From contig NZ_CP081844.1 in assembly GCF_019803445.1 (NCBI RefSeq), forward strand, positions 632,501-696,500: a stretch of 64,000 nucleotides of DNA, in the 5' to 3' direction. The stretch comes from Caenibius sp. WL. Lineage in GTDB: Bacteria > Pseudomonadota > Alphaproteobacteria > Sphingomonadales > Sphingomonadaceae. The notes under the pieces were generated by a model that ran no database searches, was not told where the DNA came from, and saw nothing but the letters and a program-made list of their open reading frames with translations. Both the position numbers and the translations under genes were made by a program. Shown here one piece after another: positions 25,166 through 30,162 of this stretch (the stretch's first letter is position 1; every line of letters starts with the position of its first letter).

Positions 25166-26764
25166 ATGAGCGATATTTTCATTGGGCTGGGCGCGAACGG
25201 CGAACGGCAGGTGCTCAATCTCAAGCGGGCCAACCGCCACGGGCTGGTCGCCGGGGCGACGGGCACCGGCAAGACGGTCACTCTGCAAGGCATCGCCGAA
25301 AGCTTTTCGGCCGTGGGCGTGCCGGTATTCCTGGCCGATGTGAAAGGCGATCTGTCGGGGATTTCGATGCCCGGCTCGCACGATCTCAAGAATGCCGCTT
25401 CGCTGGAGGCGCGGGCGAAGGAACTGGGCATGGACGACTATGCCTATGCCGACAATCCCGCGATCTTCTGGGATCTGTTTGGCGAGCAGGGCCACCCGAT
25501 CCGCACCACGGTGTCGGAAATGGGGCCGCTGCTGCTGGCGCGTCTGCTCGATCTCAACGAAACGCAGGAAGGGGTGCTCAATATCGTCTTCCGCTATGCC
25601 GACGAACAGGGGTTGCTCCTGCTCGATATGGCCGATTTGCGGGCGATGCTGGCCTACACCGCCGACAATGCGGCGGACCTGACCACCAAATACGGCAATG
25701 TCACCAAACAGAGCATCGGCGCGATCCAGCGCCAGTTGCTCTCGTTCGAAAGCCAGGGGGCGGACAAGTTCTTTGGCGAACCGGCGCTGGAGATCGAGGA
25801 TTTCCTCAAAGTGGACGAGAAAGGGCGCGGCTATATCAACGTGCTCGCCGCCGACCGGCTGATGCAGAGCCCCAAGCTCTATGCCACGTTCCTGCTCTGG
25901 CTGCTGGCTGAGCTGTTCGAAGTGCTGCCCGAAGTGGGCGATCCGGAACAGCCCAAGCTGGTGTTCTTCTTCGACGAGGCGCACTTGCTGTTCGACGATG
26001 CGCCCAAGGCGCTGCTGGACAAGATCGAGCAGGTCGTGCGGCTGATCCGGTCGAAAGGCGTGGGCGTCTATTTCGTGACGCAGAACCCGATCGATGTGCC
26101 GGAAACGGTGGCCGGGCAACTGGGCAACCGGGTGCAGCACGCGCTGCGCGCGTTCACCCCGCGCGACAAGAAGGCGATCAAGGCGGCGGCGGACACGTTT
26201 CGCATCAATCCCGATCTCGATGTCGAAACCGCGATCACCGAACTGAAAGTGGGCGAAGCGCTGGTGTCGACGCTGATGGAAGACGGCGCGCCGTCCATCG
26301 TCCAGCGCACGCTGATCAAGCCGCCGCGTTCGCGCCTCGGCCCGATCGATGCCAAGGAGCGGGCGATTATCCAGTCGGTCAGCCCGGTTCAGGGCAAGTA
26401 CGATACCGCGGTCAACCGCGAAAGCGCGGAGGAAGTGCTGGCGCAGAAAGCCGCAGATGCCGCTGCCACCGCGCAGGAAGTGGCGCAGCAGGGCGCGGAG
26501 GAAGTGGGCAAGCGCGAGCGCAAGTCGCCCGCGCTATGGGATGGACTTGCCGGCAAAGTGGCCAAGGCTGCCGCCGGGGCCGCCGCCGCCAGCGCCGGTT
26601 CGATCCTCGCCAGCACGCTGCAGGGCAAGACCAGCCGCGCCAATCCTAAGGCCAGCGCGGCCAGCGCGGCTGCGGGAACAGCGGCGACGGAAATCGGCAA
26701 GGCATTCGGCATTCCCGGCCTTGGCCGGTTCGCCCGCAATCTGATCGGCGGGCTGATGCGCTGA
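25166..26764 (+). CDS. HerA/YjgR-like P-loop ATPase (DUF853)
   Basis: A 532-residue hexameric-type ATPase. Walker A is [12 protein letters not shown] near residue 32, and Walker B is [14 protein letters not shown] near 275. The region [20 protein letters not shown] contains the sensor-like TQNP. The C-terminus is Ala-rich ([12 protein letters not shown]) with Gly at the end (RNLIGGLMR). It resembles E. coli YjgR. HerA homologues move DNA, but the role of this branch is not established. No NurA-like nuclease is adjacent. Confidence 0.85.
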
Positions 26765-26798: not shown

Positions 26799-28202
26799 CT
26801 AACCCAGCGGCAGGCGCAGTTCCGCCGCCAGCCCGCCTTCGGGCCGGTTGGCCAGCGTCAGCCGCCCGCCGTGCTGTTCGGCAATCGCGCGGGCCAGCGT
26901 CAGGCCGAGGCCGGCCCCACCGGTGGCGCGGTTGCGCGAGGGTTCGCCCCGGGCGAAGGGTTCGAACAGCCCGTCGATCTGGGCCGCGGGAATGCCCGCG
27001 CCGTTATCGGTGATGCGGATCACCGCCTCGTTGCCTTCGCGGTGCAGCGAAACCCAGGCATTGCCGCCATAGCGCAGCGCGTTGTCGATCAGATTGCGCA
27101 CCGCGCGGCGCAGCCAGGTTTCGCGGATCGGCATCACGATCCGGTCTGTCTCGCCCAGTTCGGCGTTTTCGCCCAGATCCTCGTATCCTTCGACGATCGC
27201 GGCGATCAGCGCGGAAAGTTCCGTCTTCTGCAACGGATCGCTCGGCCGCCCGACACGCGCGAGCGAGAGGATATCGTCCAGCGTGCGGGTGATATCCTCC
27301 ACCGTGGCGGCCATTTTGGCCCGTTCGGTTTCGCTTTCCACGCTTTCGATGCGGATGCGCAGGCCCGCCAGCGGGGTTTTCAGATCGTGCCCGATCGCGC
27401 CGAGCATGACATCCTTTTCCGCCAGCAGCGCGGCGATCCGGTCTTCCATCGCGTTGTGCGCGGCGATCAGTCGCCTGACGTCTTCCGGCCCGTGCGGCTG
27501 GAGCTGGCCAGCGGCTTCGCGGGTGCGGGCGAAATGTTCGACCCGGCCGGTCAACAGCGCCAGCGGGCGGGTGATCCGCCGCAGCAGGAAAGCGAGCAGG
27601 CCGACGAGGATGATATAGAGCAGCACCGTCTGCACCAGCAGCGACTGGAGCCCGCGCGGCGAACCTTCGGGCAGCGAAACGCGGGCAACGATCCAGTCCT
27701 TGCCCGGCGCTTCGCGCATTGCCGCCAGCAGCAGCTTGCGGTTGCGGATATCGCCGCCTTCGCGCGCGTTCTGCCACCGCCGGGCCCGTTCGAGCAGGAA
27801 CGGGTCCTCCGCCAGCGGGCGTTCGACCACCACCAGATCGGACAGTTGTTCGCCCTGATCGGCCAGAATCGCGGCCAGCGCCTTTTCCCGCCCGGTCTGG
27901 CGGACTTCGTTCGCCCTGATCGGCAGAGTGGGGCTGCGTTCCAGTCGGATTCGCCGCGATCCGCCGCGATGGGCGCGCTCCGGCGGCTCGGCGCGGCGGG
28001 CATGGTCGTGTCCATGCGCGGTGTTCGCCCCGCTGCCGCCGATCACACGGAAAGCAATGGCATTGAGAATCGAGGTTTCGCGCCGCTGCTCCTCCGCGCG
28101 CCACAGCAGCACGGCGGAAATCCCCTGCGCGATCAGCAGCGCGCCGGCCACCGACAGCAGCATCTGCCCCAGCAGGCTACGCGGCCAGAGACGCACGGTC
28201 AT
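26799..28202 (-). CDS. Sensor histidine kinase of a two-component system
   Basis: An inner-membrane kinase of 467 residues. TM1 is at about 12-34, followed by a periplasmic loop of about 150 residues, TM2 at about 188-208, and a HAMP-like linker. The phosphoacceptor H272 is in GAIGHDLKTPLAG, and the ATPase domain shows NLIDNALRYGG, DNGAGIP and GGAGLGLTLARAIAEQHGG. The loop holds a His-rich patch (TAHGHDHARRAEPPERAHRG, about 61-80), which may bind a metal ion. The start overlaps the response-regulator stop (ATGA). Inference: it senses an envelope signal linked to the EF-hand protein at the head of the operon. Confidence 0.92.
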   Translation of the reverse strand: MTVRLWPRSLLGQMLLSVAGALLIAQGISAVLLWRAEEQRRETSILNAIAFRVIGGSGANTAHGHDHARRAEPPERAHRGGSRRIRLERSPTLPIRANEVRQTGREKALAAILADQGEQLSDLVVVERPLAEDPFLLERARRWQNAREGGDIRNRKLLLAAMREAPGKDWIVARVSLPEGSPRGLQSLLVQTVLLYIILVGLLAFLLRRITRPLALLTGRVEHFARTREAAGQLQPHGPEDVRRLIAAHNAMEDRIAALLAEKDVMLGAIGHDLKTPLAGLRIRIESVESETERAKMAATVEDITRTLDDILSLARVGRPSDPLQKTELSALIAAIVEGYEDLGENAELGETDRIVMPIRETWLRRAVRNLIDNALRYGGNAWVSLHREGNEAVIRITDNGAGIPAAQIDGLFEPFARGEPSRNRATGGAGLGLTLARAIAEQHGGRLTLANRPEGGLAAELRLPLG

Positions 28203-28999
28203 GCCCTGTCCGGGCGGGAAGTGTCCGAACGGGAAGTGTCGGGGCGGGAACTGTCGGGCAGCACGCGGCGCACATCGGCGGCAAAGCGATAGCCGCCGCC
28301 CCACACCGTCTGGATCAGGCGCGGTTCGTCGCGCCCGGCTTCGATCTTGCGGCGCAGGCGGCTCACCTGGTTGTCCACCGCGCGGTCGAACAGATGGGCT
28401 TCGCGGCCCTGCACCATGTCGAGCAGCCGATCACGGTCGAGCACTTGGCGCGGATGATCGAGAAACGCTTTGAGCAACCGGAATTCCGCCGAGGAAATGG
28501 CGATGGCCGCACCTTCGGGATCGCTCAGCTGGTGCTTCAGCGGATCGAGCCGCCAGCCTTCGAATTCGTACCATGCGTCTTCTTCGGGCAGAGCGGCGGG
28601 CCGGGTGGCGCGGCGCAGCACGCTGCGGATGCGGGCGACCAGTTCGCGCGGTTCGAATGGCTTGGTCACGTAATCATCGGCGCCGATTTCCAGCCCGATG
28701 ATGCGATCGGTCGCTTCGCCGCGCGCGGTCAGCAGAATCACCGGCAGGCTCTTGGTTTCGACCAGATGGCGGCACAGAGAAAGCCCGTCTTCCCCCGGCA
28801 TCATGATGTCCAGCAGCACGATATCGGGCTTGTCCTGCAACAGCAGGCTGCGGGCATCGGCTGCGCTTTCGGCCTGCAGCACGGCAAACCCCTGGCCGGA
28901 CAGATAGTCCGCCAGGGGTTCGCGCAGGCCCGGTTCGTCATCGACGATCAGGACGCGGGCGCCCGCATGTCCGGCATTGGCGGTAGGGGCGCCCGTCAT
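28199..28999 (-). CDS. OmpR-family response regulator
   Basis: A DNA-binding partner of the downstream kinase, 266 residues. The receiver domain (about 15-130) has the acidic pair in VLIVDDEPG, phosphoacceptor D64 in VLLDIMMPGEDG and the conserved Lys in DDYVTKPFEP. The C-terminal winged helix (about 150-245) ends in RRKIEAG ... VWGGGYRF. The protein extends past the usual end with a short repeated tail (SRPDTSRSDTSRPDRA) encoded by three 15-bp units. It starts 3 bp after the EF-hand gene and overlaps the kinase gene. Confidence 0.94.
   Translation of the reverse strand: MTGAPTANAGHAGARVLIVDDEPGLREPLADYLSGQGFAVLQAESAADARSLLLQDKPDIVLLDIMMPGEDGLSLCRHLVETKSLPVILLTARGEATDRIIGLEIGADDYVTKPFEPRELVARIRSVLRRATRPAALPEEDAWYEFEGWRLDPLKHQLSDPEGAAIAISSAEFRLLKAFLDHPRQVLDRDRLLDMVQGREAHLFDRAVDNQVSRLRRKIEAGRDEPRLIQTVWGGGYRFAADVRRVLPDSSRPDTSRSDTSRPDRA
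28211..28255. repeat. Three 15-bp tandem repeats inside the response-regulator gene
   Basis: Units CGGGCGGGAAGTGTC, CGAACGGGAAGTGTC and GGGGCGGGAACTGTC lie head-to-tail and encode repeated five-residue SRPDT-like units at the C-terminus. The period is a multiple of three, so copy-number change would keep the frame. Confidence 0.7.
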
Positions 29000-29002
29000 C
29001 GT

Positions 29003-29581
29003 TTACTGGGCCTTCTGCTGCTGTTGGGTGGCGCGCTTGGCCTGCCATTCGGCGCGCATCTTTTCACGCTGCGCCTGGCGTTCCTGCGTTGTCAGCACGC
29101 CGTTCCTGTCGGTATCGGCGGCATCGAAGCGGGCGAGATGCGCCGCGACGAATTCGGCCCGGGTGACGGGGCCGGCGCCCTGCTTCATCATGCCCATGCC
29201 GCCGTGGCCGCCGCGATGCCAGCCGCCGTGATGGCGTCCGCCAAAGCGCCTGCCATCGGCCTTCTGGCCATCGGGCGCGGTGCGGGTGCGATCCCGGCGG
29301 GCGGCAAATTCCTCGCGGCTGATGCTGCCGTCCTTGTTGGTGTCGAGCCGGTCGAACCGGGCCTGCTGGCGCGCTTCGCGATCGGCCGCATCGAGCTTGC
29401 CATCCTTGTTGGCGTCCATGCGGTCGAACATCTTGCCGGCCCGTTCTTCGGCCTGCGCGCGGGTGATGTCGGGGCGGGCCTTGCCGGCACCGTCCTGGCC
29501 GGGGGCGGCATAGGCGATGCCTGCGGTGGCAACGCTGGCGGCCGCAGCCGTGCCCAGCAGAATTTTCGAGATCATACGCAT
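29003..29581 (-). CDS. Secreted EF-hand protein heading a two-component operon
   Basis: A periplasmic calcium-binding-type protein of 192 residues. A signal peptide (ISKILLGTAAAASVATAGIA, cleavage near AYA-AP) is followed by three EF-hand loops: DANKDGKLDAAD (56-67), DTNKDGSISREE (80-91) and DTDRNGVLTTQE (156-167). Between loops 2 and 3 is a His/Gly/Met stretch (GGRHHGGWHRGGHGGMGMM, about 114-132) suited to transition metals. AGGAG lies 8 nt before the ATG. It is followed after 3 bp by the response regulator, so it is likely part of the signalling unit, or its main target. Confidence 0.9.
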   Translation of the reverse strand: MRMISKILLGTAAAASVATAGIAYAAPGQDGAGKARPDITRAQAEERAGKMFDRMDANKDGKLDAADREARQQARFDRLDTNKDGSISREEFAARRDRTRTAPDGQKADGRRFGGRHHGGWHRGGHGGMGMMKQGAGPVTRAEFVAAHLARFDAADTDRNGVLTTQERQAQREKMRAEWQAKRATQQQQKAQ

Positions 29582-29686
29582 TACCGTGGCTCCTTCGCAA
29601 ATTCGGTTGAGTTGCGGAAGGCCGATCCAAGGGGAGGGGGATTGGGATGGCCCTCCGCAACTCTCGAAGCTGCTTTTACGTGCCGC

Positions 29687-29735
29687 TTGTCGCGCAACTT
29701 TGTCGCCAAACCGCAAAATTGTCGCAAATTGTCGC
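29687..29735 (-). promoter_or_regulatory. TTGTCGC direct repeats upstream of the EF-hand/two-component operon
   Basis: TTGTCGC occurs four times, starting at 29687, 29700, 29719 and 29729. The last two copies are 10 bp apart, one helical turn, which is typical of tandem OmpR-type sites. They lie 105-155 bp upstream of the first gene of the operon, where autoregulation by its own response regulator would act. Confidence 0.4.
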
Positions 29736-29751
29736 GGATCGGCGGGCCGGT

Positions 29752-30162
29752 TCATTCGGGCGCAAGACGCGGGCGATGTTCGGTGCCGAGCCCGGCGGTG
29801 ATGAACAGCGCCTCCACCGGGCCCGTGGCATCGGCGGTGTGCCACACGCCGGGCGGATTGATCGCATATTCGCCGGGTTCCAGTCGGGTGGCGACATGGC
29901 CCTGTCCGGGAATGTCCTGAATCAGCGTGATTGAGCCCCGGGTGCAGACGACCACTTCGGCCCCGTGCGGGTGCATTTCCCATGAATCCCACGGGGCGGA
30001 AAAGGCGTGCAGGGCAACCAGCCGCCCCTCCGCCCCGTCGCCATCGGTCCGCGCGGCATAGTCGGCGTACCAGTCGATCCCGGTATAGGGCGGCTGCGCC
30101 TCAGCCGTCGCGCCGAGGCCGAGATGCACGAAGCGTTCGTGCAGATTCTTCGCCCCGGTCAT
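29752..30162 (-). CDS. Cupin-domain protein
   Basis: A 136-residue beta-barrel of the cupin type. Motif 1 is read in WEMHPHGAEVVVCTRGSITL and motif 2 in LEPGEYAINPPGVWHTADA, giving His residues for a metal site. Such single-domain cupins are enzymes or ligand-binding proteins; no specific reaction can be named. Its ATG overlaps the stop of the aminopeptidase P gene (ATGA), suggesting cotranslation with peptide turnover. Confidence 0.8.
   Translation of the reverse strand: MTGAKNLHERFVHLGLGATAEAQPPYTGIDWYADYAARTDGDGAEGRLVALHAFSAPWDSWEMHPHGAEVVVCTRGSITLIQDIPGQGHVATRLEPGEYAINPPGVWHTADATGPVEALFITAGLGTEHRPRLAPE

Follow-up and report, generated by a model that had tools for sequence, protein, structure and literature searches.

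Which role does an EF-hand protein play when its gene stands at the head of an operon for a two-component system (TCS)? This question is raised by a minus-strand operon in a stretch of 64,000 nucleotides from Caenibius sp. WL (contig NZ_CP081844.1, positions 632,501 to 696,500; hereafter the window), in which the gene for an EF-hand protein is tightly followed by those for an OmpR-family response regulator and a histidine kinase, with copies of the heptamer TTGTCGC upstream. An initial annotation of this DNA had offered two answers, namely that the kinase receives Ca2+ or a transition metal from the EF-hand protein, or that the latter is the regulated output of the system. Based upon the sequence comparisons described below, we consider it likely that this is a positively autoregulated envelope-response operon with the EF-hand protein mainly as an output, because the upstream operator is conserved and because the BfmR-efhP circuit of Pseudomonas aeruginosa provides a parallel.

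In the circuit that we propose, the kinase would sense an envelope signal and phosphorylate the regulator, which would then bind the direct repeat GCGACAATTTGCGACA and two further half-sites just upstream of a -10-like box, activating the EF-hand gene together with its own TCS genes. The regulator may also control a few other envelope genes, among them one of the RcnB family and, less certainly, a MATE/RND efflux region; the EF-hand protein, mainly an output, could feed back on the kinase; and the operon mRNA would start with a conserved long hairpin bearing a C-rich loop. In many sphingomonads, a probable envelope EF-hand protein would be linked with one particular regulator, its operator and a small set of predicted target genes, and the role of bacterial EF-hand proteins becomes testable by one promoter reporter. 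The circuit belongs to a familiar kind of stress response and is new in part, the new element being the conserved leader hairpin, for which no Rfam family was found.

Gene order and the upstream repeat block

The EF-hand gene (29003..29581, minus strand; 192 amino acids, Pfam EF-hand_5 E 5.8e-15), which has a Shine-Dalgarno GGAG at 29590..29593 on the same strand, ends 3 bp before the regulator gene (28199..28999, minus strand; 266 amino acids, Pfam Response_reg and Trans_reg_C), and the kinase gene (26799..28202, minus strand; 467 amino acids, ATG at 28202, EnvZ-like core) overlaps the stop of the regulator by 4 bp (ATGA), so that these coordinates bear out the operon, gap and overlap of the initial annotation. 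The regulator combines a receiver with a winged-helix Trans_reg_C domain and is neighboured by a HisKA/HATPase kinase, as is characteristic of OmpR/PhoB-family two-component systems; its best NCBIfam model is OmpR (242.9 bits, under the cut-off of 331), and RstA scores 149.4 bits. Assignment to the heavy-metal regulators CzcR/SilR/CopR was rejected, as the score for TIGR01387 (132.2 bits) lies below its cut-off of 279.2.

The same gene order, which the initial annotation had proposed to look for in relatives, is widely shared. The regulator was found at 57% identity or more in 16 of the 40 related genomes searched (including the window's own), and the EF-hand gene is directly upstream of it in 15 of these 16; in the remaining one (G014) an RcnB-like gene occupies this position. 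The EF-hand gene also precedes the regulator in all eight loci from named records (L101-L108, from Tsuneonella, Altererythrobacter, Sphingobium, Sphingomonas and one uncultured organism). As one of these (L101) lies on the same contig as a locus already counted (L005), the arrangement is present in 22 of 23 distinct sphingomonad loci. Among the best 80 of 594 relatives, a divergent EF-hand neighbour is seen beyond the sphingomonads in Methylobrevis (L111) and in two metagenome-assembled genomes (L112 and L113), and a simple loop-motif search of the open frames revealed no EF-hand gene in L114-L180.

The four TTGTCGC copies that the initial annotation had noted upstream of the operon, two of them one helical turn apart, are likewise real, and their clustering exceeds chance. 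The heptamer occurs at 29687, 29700, 29719 and 29729 (spacings 13, 19 and 10). It is not enriched in the window as a whole (11 observed, 12.3 expected), and three or more same-strand copies within 49 bp were seen in none of 150 first-order simulations; of all 7-mers, only five reach four copies in 49 bp anywhere in the window, and three of these are registers of one CGC repeat. On the gene strand (minus) these copies read GCGACAA and form half-site 1 (29729..29735), half-site 2 (29719..29725) 10 bp downstream of it, half-site 3 (29700..29706) and half-site 4 (29687..29693), followed by a putative -10-like box, GTAAAA (29674..29679, minus strand; consensus CTAGAA). Together with a TGAAC box at 29750-29754, these elements make up a conserved promoter/operator block of 82 bp (29674..29755, minus strand), represented by an alignment (A1) and a profile (R1) of 22 sequences, from which L099 was omitted as its block is out of register.

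Conservation of the block was assessed in 23 loci, of which 15 (L001-L015) were chosen by the regulator alone and eight more (L085 to L099) by the repeat pair itself. In 14 of the 15 regulator-chosen loci, half-sites 1, 2 and 4 are spaced 10 and 32 bp (10 and 33 in L015), so that the repeats, too, recur in relatives as the initial annotation had suggested checking; the 10/32 register is present in 20 of all 23 loci, the exceptions being L015, L085 (10/33) and L099. Half-site 4 retains GCGACA in 21 of the 23 loci. At half-site 3, the window and its closest relatives have GCGACAA, whereas the sequence is mostly degenerate in the others (CGGCAAA, CGGCATA and similar). The CTAGAA box begins 14 bp past the start of half-site 4 in 14 of the 23 loci, with GTAGAA or TTAGAA in four more, and most loci have the TGAAC box some 19 bp ahead of half-site 1. 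The possibility that TGAAC merely reflects the stop of the upstream gene holds for the window; it was rejected as a general explanation, 14 of the 21 loci with this box having a frame of less than 60 amino acids behind it. The repeat extends to Bradyrhizobium, where GCGACA precedes the regulator at 2243, 2253 and 2285 in L109 (10 and 32 bp, with GGGACAA between) and at 2233 and 2275 in L110, and elements of the block are located in L113 as well, in the region that separates the EF-hand gene from the divergently oriented regulator gene.

From this pattern we infer that the block is the regulator's own autoregulatory operator, with activation rather than repression as the predicted effect. A direct repeat with a 10-bp period is the usual form of site for OmpR-family regulators (PMC9275681). 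Two other owners of the motif, CenR and UzcR, were rejected: the conserved pair GCGACA-N4-GCGACA is not the TGA-N8-TGA of CenKR (PMC9275681), and the block is unlike the CATTAC-N6-TTAA site of UzcRS (PMC8963506). By analogy, the closest experimental parallel is BfmRS of P. aeruginosa, which drives the EF-hand gene efhP. The BfmR site TACAA-N3-GATACA is a form of 10-bp direct repeat, its top three regions in chromatin immunoprecipitation are its own operon, pa4103 and efhP, and efhP is the most activated gene (PMC8025907). The predicted site here has a similar 10-bp repeat form, with an EF-hand gene as putative target, and half-site 1 is GATACA in three of our 23 loci (L005, L014 and L015). They differ in that the main half-site here is GCGACAA rather than GATACA and in that efhP heads a separate operon, whereas the EF-hand gene here heads the TCS operon; in addition, the available part of PMC8025907 mentions no leader hairpin. 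Expression of efhP has also been reported to depend on CarSR (PMC11559002), and an EfhP homologue of Pseudomonas syringae, which has four EF-hands, is encoded downstream of genes for a histidine kinase and a response regulator (PMC4053335). Against the BfmR receiver domain (PDB 5hm6, receiver only) our regulator scored 98.9 bits, and against PhoB receivers up to 111.8. Our literature search found no title evidently about this operon or circuit.

The leader hairpin

After the -10-like box, about where transcription should start, the predicted 5' untranslated region contains a stem-loop (29609..29663, minus strand) with an ungapped stem of 15 bp (GAGTTGCGGAGGGCC/GGCCTTCCGCAACTC) and a C-rich loop that includes CCCCCTCCCC and resembles an anti-Shine-Dalgarno sequence. 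In an alignment of 22 leaders (A3), 95.0% of the cells are paired in a 13-bp stem vs 34-55% with slid partners, a percentage that is favoured by the leaders having been picked for this fold and cut at the stem ends and by the structure coming from the same alignment. Better evidence for the stem than this percentage comes from compensatory changes: 10 of the 13 stem pairs have changed on both sides, there are 55 double-change cells vs a shuffled mean of 20.3, and no measure was reached in 500 shuffles. Counting against the stem, three of the first 23 leaders (L085, L088 and L090) have no hairpin and are omitted from A3, and L015 is misaligned in it.

In a larger set of 43 leaders, with or without a hairpin, an ungapped helix of at least 9 bp is present near the 5' end in 38 (it is shorter in L085, L088, L090, L253 and L267), 31 beat all 60 of their own mononucleotide shuffles, and 36 have CCUCC or CUCCC in the loop. 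No Rfam family matched at its gathering score in the 20 loci searched, the best sub-threshold match over the window leader having 15.5 bits vs a gathering score of 83. With a model of the hairpin (R2), this leader was the one strong match in its own genome (E 1.6e-7; 150 of 2217 candidates scored), and matches at E 0.1 were obtained in 24 of 59 genomes of the family, some of them outside the operon. No title found in the literature evidently concerns such a leader, most subscription papers being outside the coverage of the search.

The hairpin probably has a post-transcriptional role in tuning the stability or translation of the operon mRNA. A serious contender, somewhat short of probable, is that it is a mere stabiliser of the mRNA 5' end without any regulation, as the position at the expected transcript start, the very stable stem and the drift of the stem sequence with its pairing kept would all suit; the C/U-rich loop common to most leaders would, however, be needless for a pure stabiliser. 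We regard it as possible, while holding the claim tentatively, that these leaders represent a new class of regulatory RNA, a hairpin at the 5' end whose C-rich loop resembles an anti-Shine-Dalgarno sequence and which acts in cis or in trans. In the former case, the C-rich loop and the 3' arm would be kept away from the gene's own GGAG. When the 5' half of the hairpin was deleted in silico, the mean unpaired probability of the Shine-Dalgarno sequence fell from 0.51 to 0.20 (20 leaders); because a shuffled 3' arm gave 0.25 (mean rank 0.35), these values do not point to a specific pairing of arm and Shine-Dalgarno sequence for a cis switch. In the latter case, a small RNA (sRNA) derived from the 5' untranslated region would pair through its loop with G-rich leaders, and one TCS promoter would then yield both a protein and an RNA response. 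In Caulobacter, the 5' C-rich loop of the sRNA GsrN pairs with G-rich target mRNAs (PMC5869019); the C-rich loop is alike, although GsrN is a free sRNA and the hairpin here lies in an mRNA leader. In either case, the hairpin is a well-supported RNA structure and a concrete target for RNA work in sphingomonads.

Two other hairpins with C-rich loops were noted. One, of the GAG(R)CGCG(R)CC type, recurs outside the EF-hand operon (L237, G007:C12:238410; L238, G019:C1:407210; L242, G018:C1:233452; L244, G060:C1:905095) and is possibly an sRNA or a 3' element. The other (L241, G018:C1:1334153-1334204) has a long stem and a C-rich loop in an architecture like that of the EF-hand leader, and lies about 40 nucleotides upstream of a gene that by eye encodes an NhaA-like Na+/H+ antiporter.

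The EF-hand protein and the kinase

The EF-hand protein of the window has three canonical loops (DANKDGKLDAAD, DTNKDGSISREE and DTDRNGVLTTQE) and a linker (RRFGGRHHGGWHRGGHGGMGMMKQ), its third EF loop being degenerate (QGAGPVTRAE). Among its relatives, 19 of the 21 counted have four to six loops, which together with the degenerate third loop qualifies the three EF-hands of the initial annotation. An N-terminus that appears signal-like by eye (MRMISKILLGTAAAASVATAGIAYAAPG) suggests that the protein is probably exported to the periplasm. In an AlphaFold2 model (27 sequences; mean predicted local distance difference test score, pLDDT, 76.4) two EF-hand lobes (pLDDT 92-97 in their cores) are joined by a disordered linker rich in Gly, His, Met and Arg (below 50 at residues 106-134), and we propose that the protein would act in the periplasm as a two-lobed binder of divalent cations. 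The EF loops and the Gly/Arg/Met-rich character of the linker are conserved across the EF-hand proteins, and the number of His residues ranges from 0 (in L008 and L011) to 10 among 22 of them. The EF-hand protein of the window is the only one of its genome with a Pfam EF-hand_5 match at E 0.001 or better.

A Foldseek search with the model against the PDB gave no match at 0.001 or better, lanmodulin structures ranking first with E 0.027. The EF-hands of lanmodulin (LanM) are closely spaced, with a proline at position 2 of the loop. The loops of our EF-hand protein similarly start 24 residues apart, but they begin with DA, DT and DT, lacking this proline, and are accompanied by a long Gly/Met/Arg linker; membership of the LanM family was rejected, as NCBIfam NF053806 scored 45.7 bits vs a cut-off of 135. 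The Caulobacter vibrioides protein CaBP is similarly a periplasmic protein with three EF-hands that is tied to a regulator, although the latter is the sigma factor SigV and the cabp gene is described as monocistronic (PMC13171946).

The kinase has a HATPase_c domain and a HisKA score of 23.3, just below the cut-off of 26.9. Its orthologues resemble one another in the first transmembrane segment and in the part that leads to the HAMP region, and the periplasmic loop is poorly conserved. The His patch GHDHARR lies in this loop in the window kinase and is absent from every other kinase in an alignment of 26 rows (L101 duplicates L005, and the sequences of L109 and L110 are truncated in this part); the loop of L002 contains other histidines. 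Metal sensing by the kinase through GHDHARR was therefore rejected, and as the patch is not conserved there is no support for a transition metal being presented to the kinase; of the earlier proposal, the regulated-output alternative is supported.

It is still conceivable, though in our view unlikely, that the EF-hand protein serves the kinase as a sensor subunit in the periplasm, either by presenting it with Ca2+ or another metal or by keeping it inhibited until displaced, in the manner of CpxP-like partners. Its place in the same operon directly upstream of the regulator and its signal-like N-terminus would be expected of such a subunit, as would the finding that an RcnB-like protein, also small and probably exported, substitutes for it before a regulator in L221, L224, L225 and L227. 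The poor conservation of the kinase loop, with a His patch that is not shared, argues against it, as do two cases in which the partners are found apart: in Bradyrhizobium, L109 and L110 retain both regulator and repeat, whereas the stretch of sequence covered there contains no EF-hand gene, and in G014 the two genes are on different contigs, the EF-hand gene with a block of its own on C35 (L223) and the regulator behind an RcnB-like gene on C19 (L224).

The block elsewhere and its predicted targets

The block may serve other genes also. In the window's own genome, profile R1 matched this operon (E 1.5e-16), an RcnB gene (6.8e-5; Pfam RcnB E 2.4e-15) and the intergenic region between MATE and RND-adaptor genes (5.5e-4), the last match covering half-sites 1-2 only. 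Matches occur in at least 36 of 59 genomes of the family at E 0.01 (once in 27 of them) and in at least 89 of 196 genomes of the order at E 0.001 (once in 68, and 88 of the 89 in the same family); these counts are lower bounds, since partial sets of candidates were scored (150 of 1913 in the own genome and 78 or 23 per genome elsewhere). Of the first 20 matches followed up, nine precede an EF-hand gene and seven an RcnB-like gene (which a regulator follows in four), and the remainder precede two TonB-receptor-like genes, one gene for a small secreted protein and one that is unclear; RcnB was confirmed by Pfam in L184 and L221 and judged by resemblance in the others. Another 20 loci were drawn from among the stronger matches in the order, and an EF-hand gene is next in all 20. 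The block is best read as marking a small envelope regulon besides the operon, as predicted from these matches. In Caulobacter, UzcRS is an envelope- and metal-responsive TCS whose regulon similarly includes TonB receptors and efflux pumps (PMC8963506, PMC12864828), its site, as noted above, being different.

Several observations weigh against this reading of the operon and its block. The scoring of partial candidate sets may have missed weak sites, and both follow-up sets were selected by profile or repeat, so that their downstream genes are not independent. In the own genome the exact repeat pair has 2 sites vs 2 for a reversed control, and with one mismatch allowed the pattern has 32 matches vs 47; because the control equals or exceeds the plain pattern there, we relied upon the profile, although over 59 genomes the exact pair occurs 111 times vs 40 for the control. 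The -10 box of the window is off-consensus. The Bradyrhizobium loci, besides showing no EF-hand gene, have their repeats without a CTAGAA box; Methylobrevis L111 and the metagenome-assembled L112 have the EF-hand neighbour with no clear repeat; and in G013 the block is present and no regulator above 45% identity was found. That some other regulator owns the repeats, with the TCS carried along in the operon as a mere passenger, as L111, L112 and G013 would allow, is nevertheless quite improbable, for the repeat precedes this regulator in sphingomonads and Bradyrhizobium with or without an EF-hand gene, and RcnB-TCS operons as well, and it has the form usual for the OmpR family (PMC9275681).

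In the parts available, a study of the transcriptome of Sphingobium ba1 under nickel names a CopS-type TCS and no EF-hand protein, and one on Acinetobacter rcnB makes no link to this operator. The only other exact GCGACA-N4-GCGACA in the own genome lies between the MATE transporter and RND adaptor genes (L051:7022-7037; G000:C1:2599021). The two TonB-receptor-like genes behind the block are in L214 (G040; weak Plug match) and L217 (G076; resembling L214). In Caulobacter, according to two papers (PMC8963506, PMC13171946), only a few locus tags separate the EF-hand gene cabp from the uzcRS genes (CCNA_02838, CCNA_02842 and CCNA_02845), a possible further EF-hand/TCS neighbourhood. The operon itself is flanked on one side by a convergent frame on the plus strand, which ends at 26764 and is ATPase-like by eye, and on the other by a frame of the cupin type on the minus strand, with its end at 29752 (Cupin_2 E 1.5e-7).

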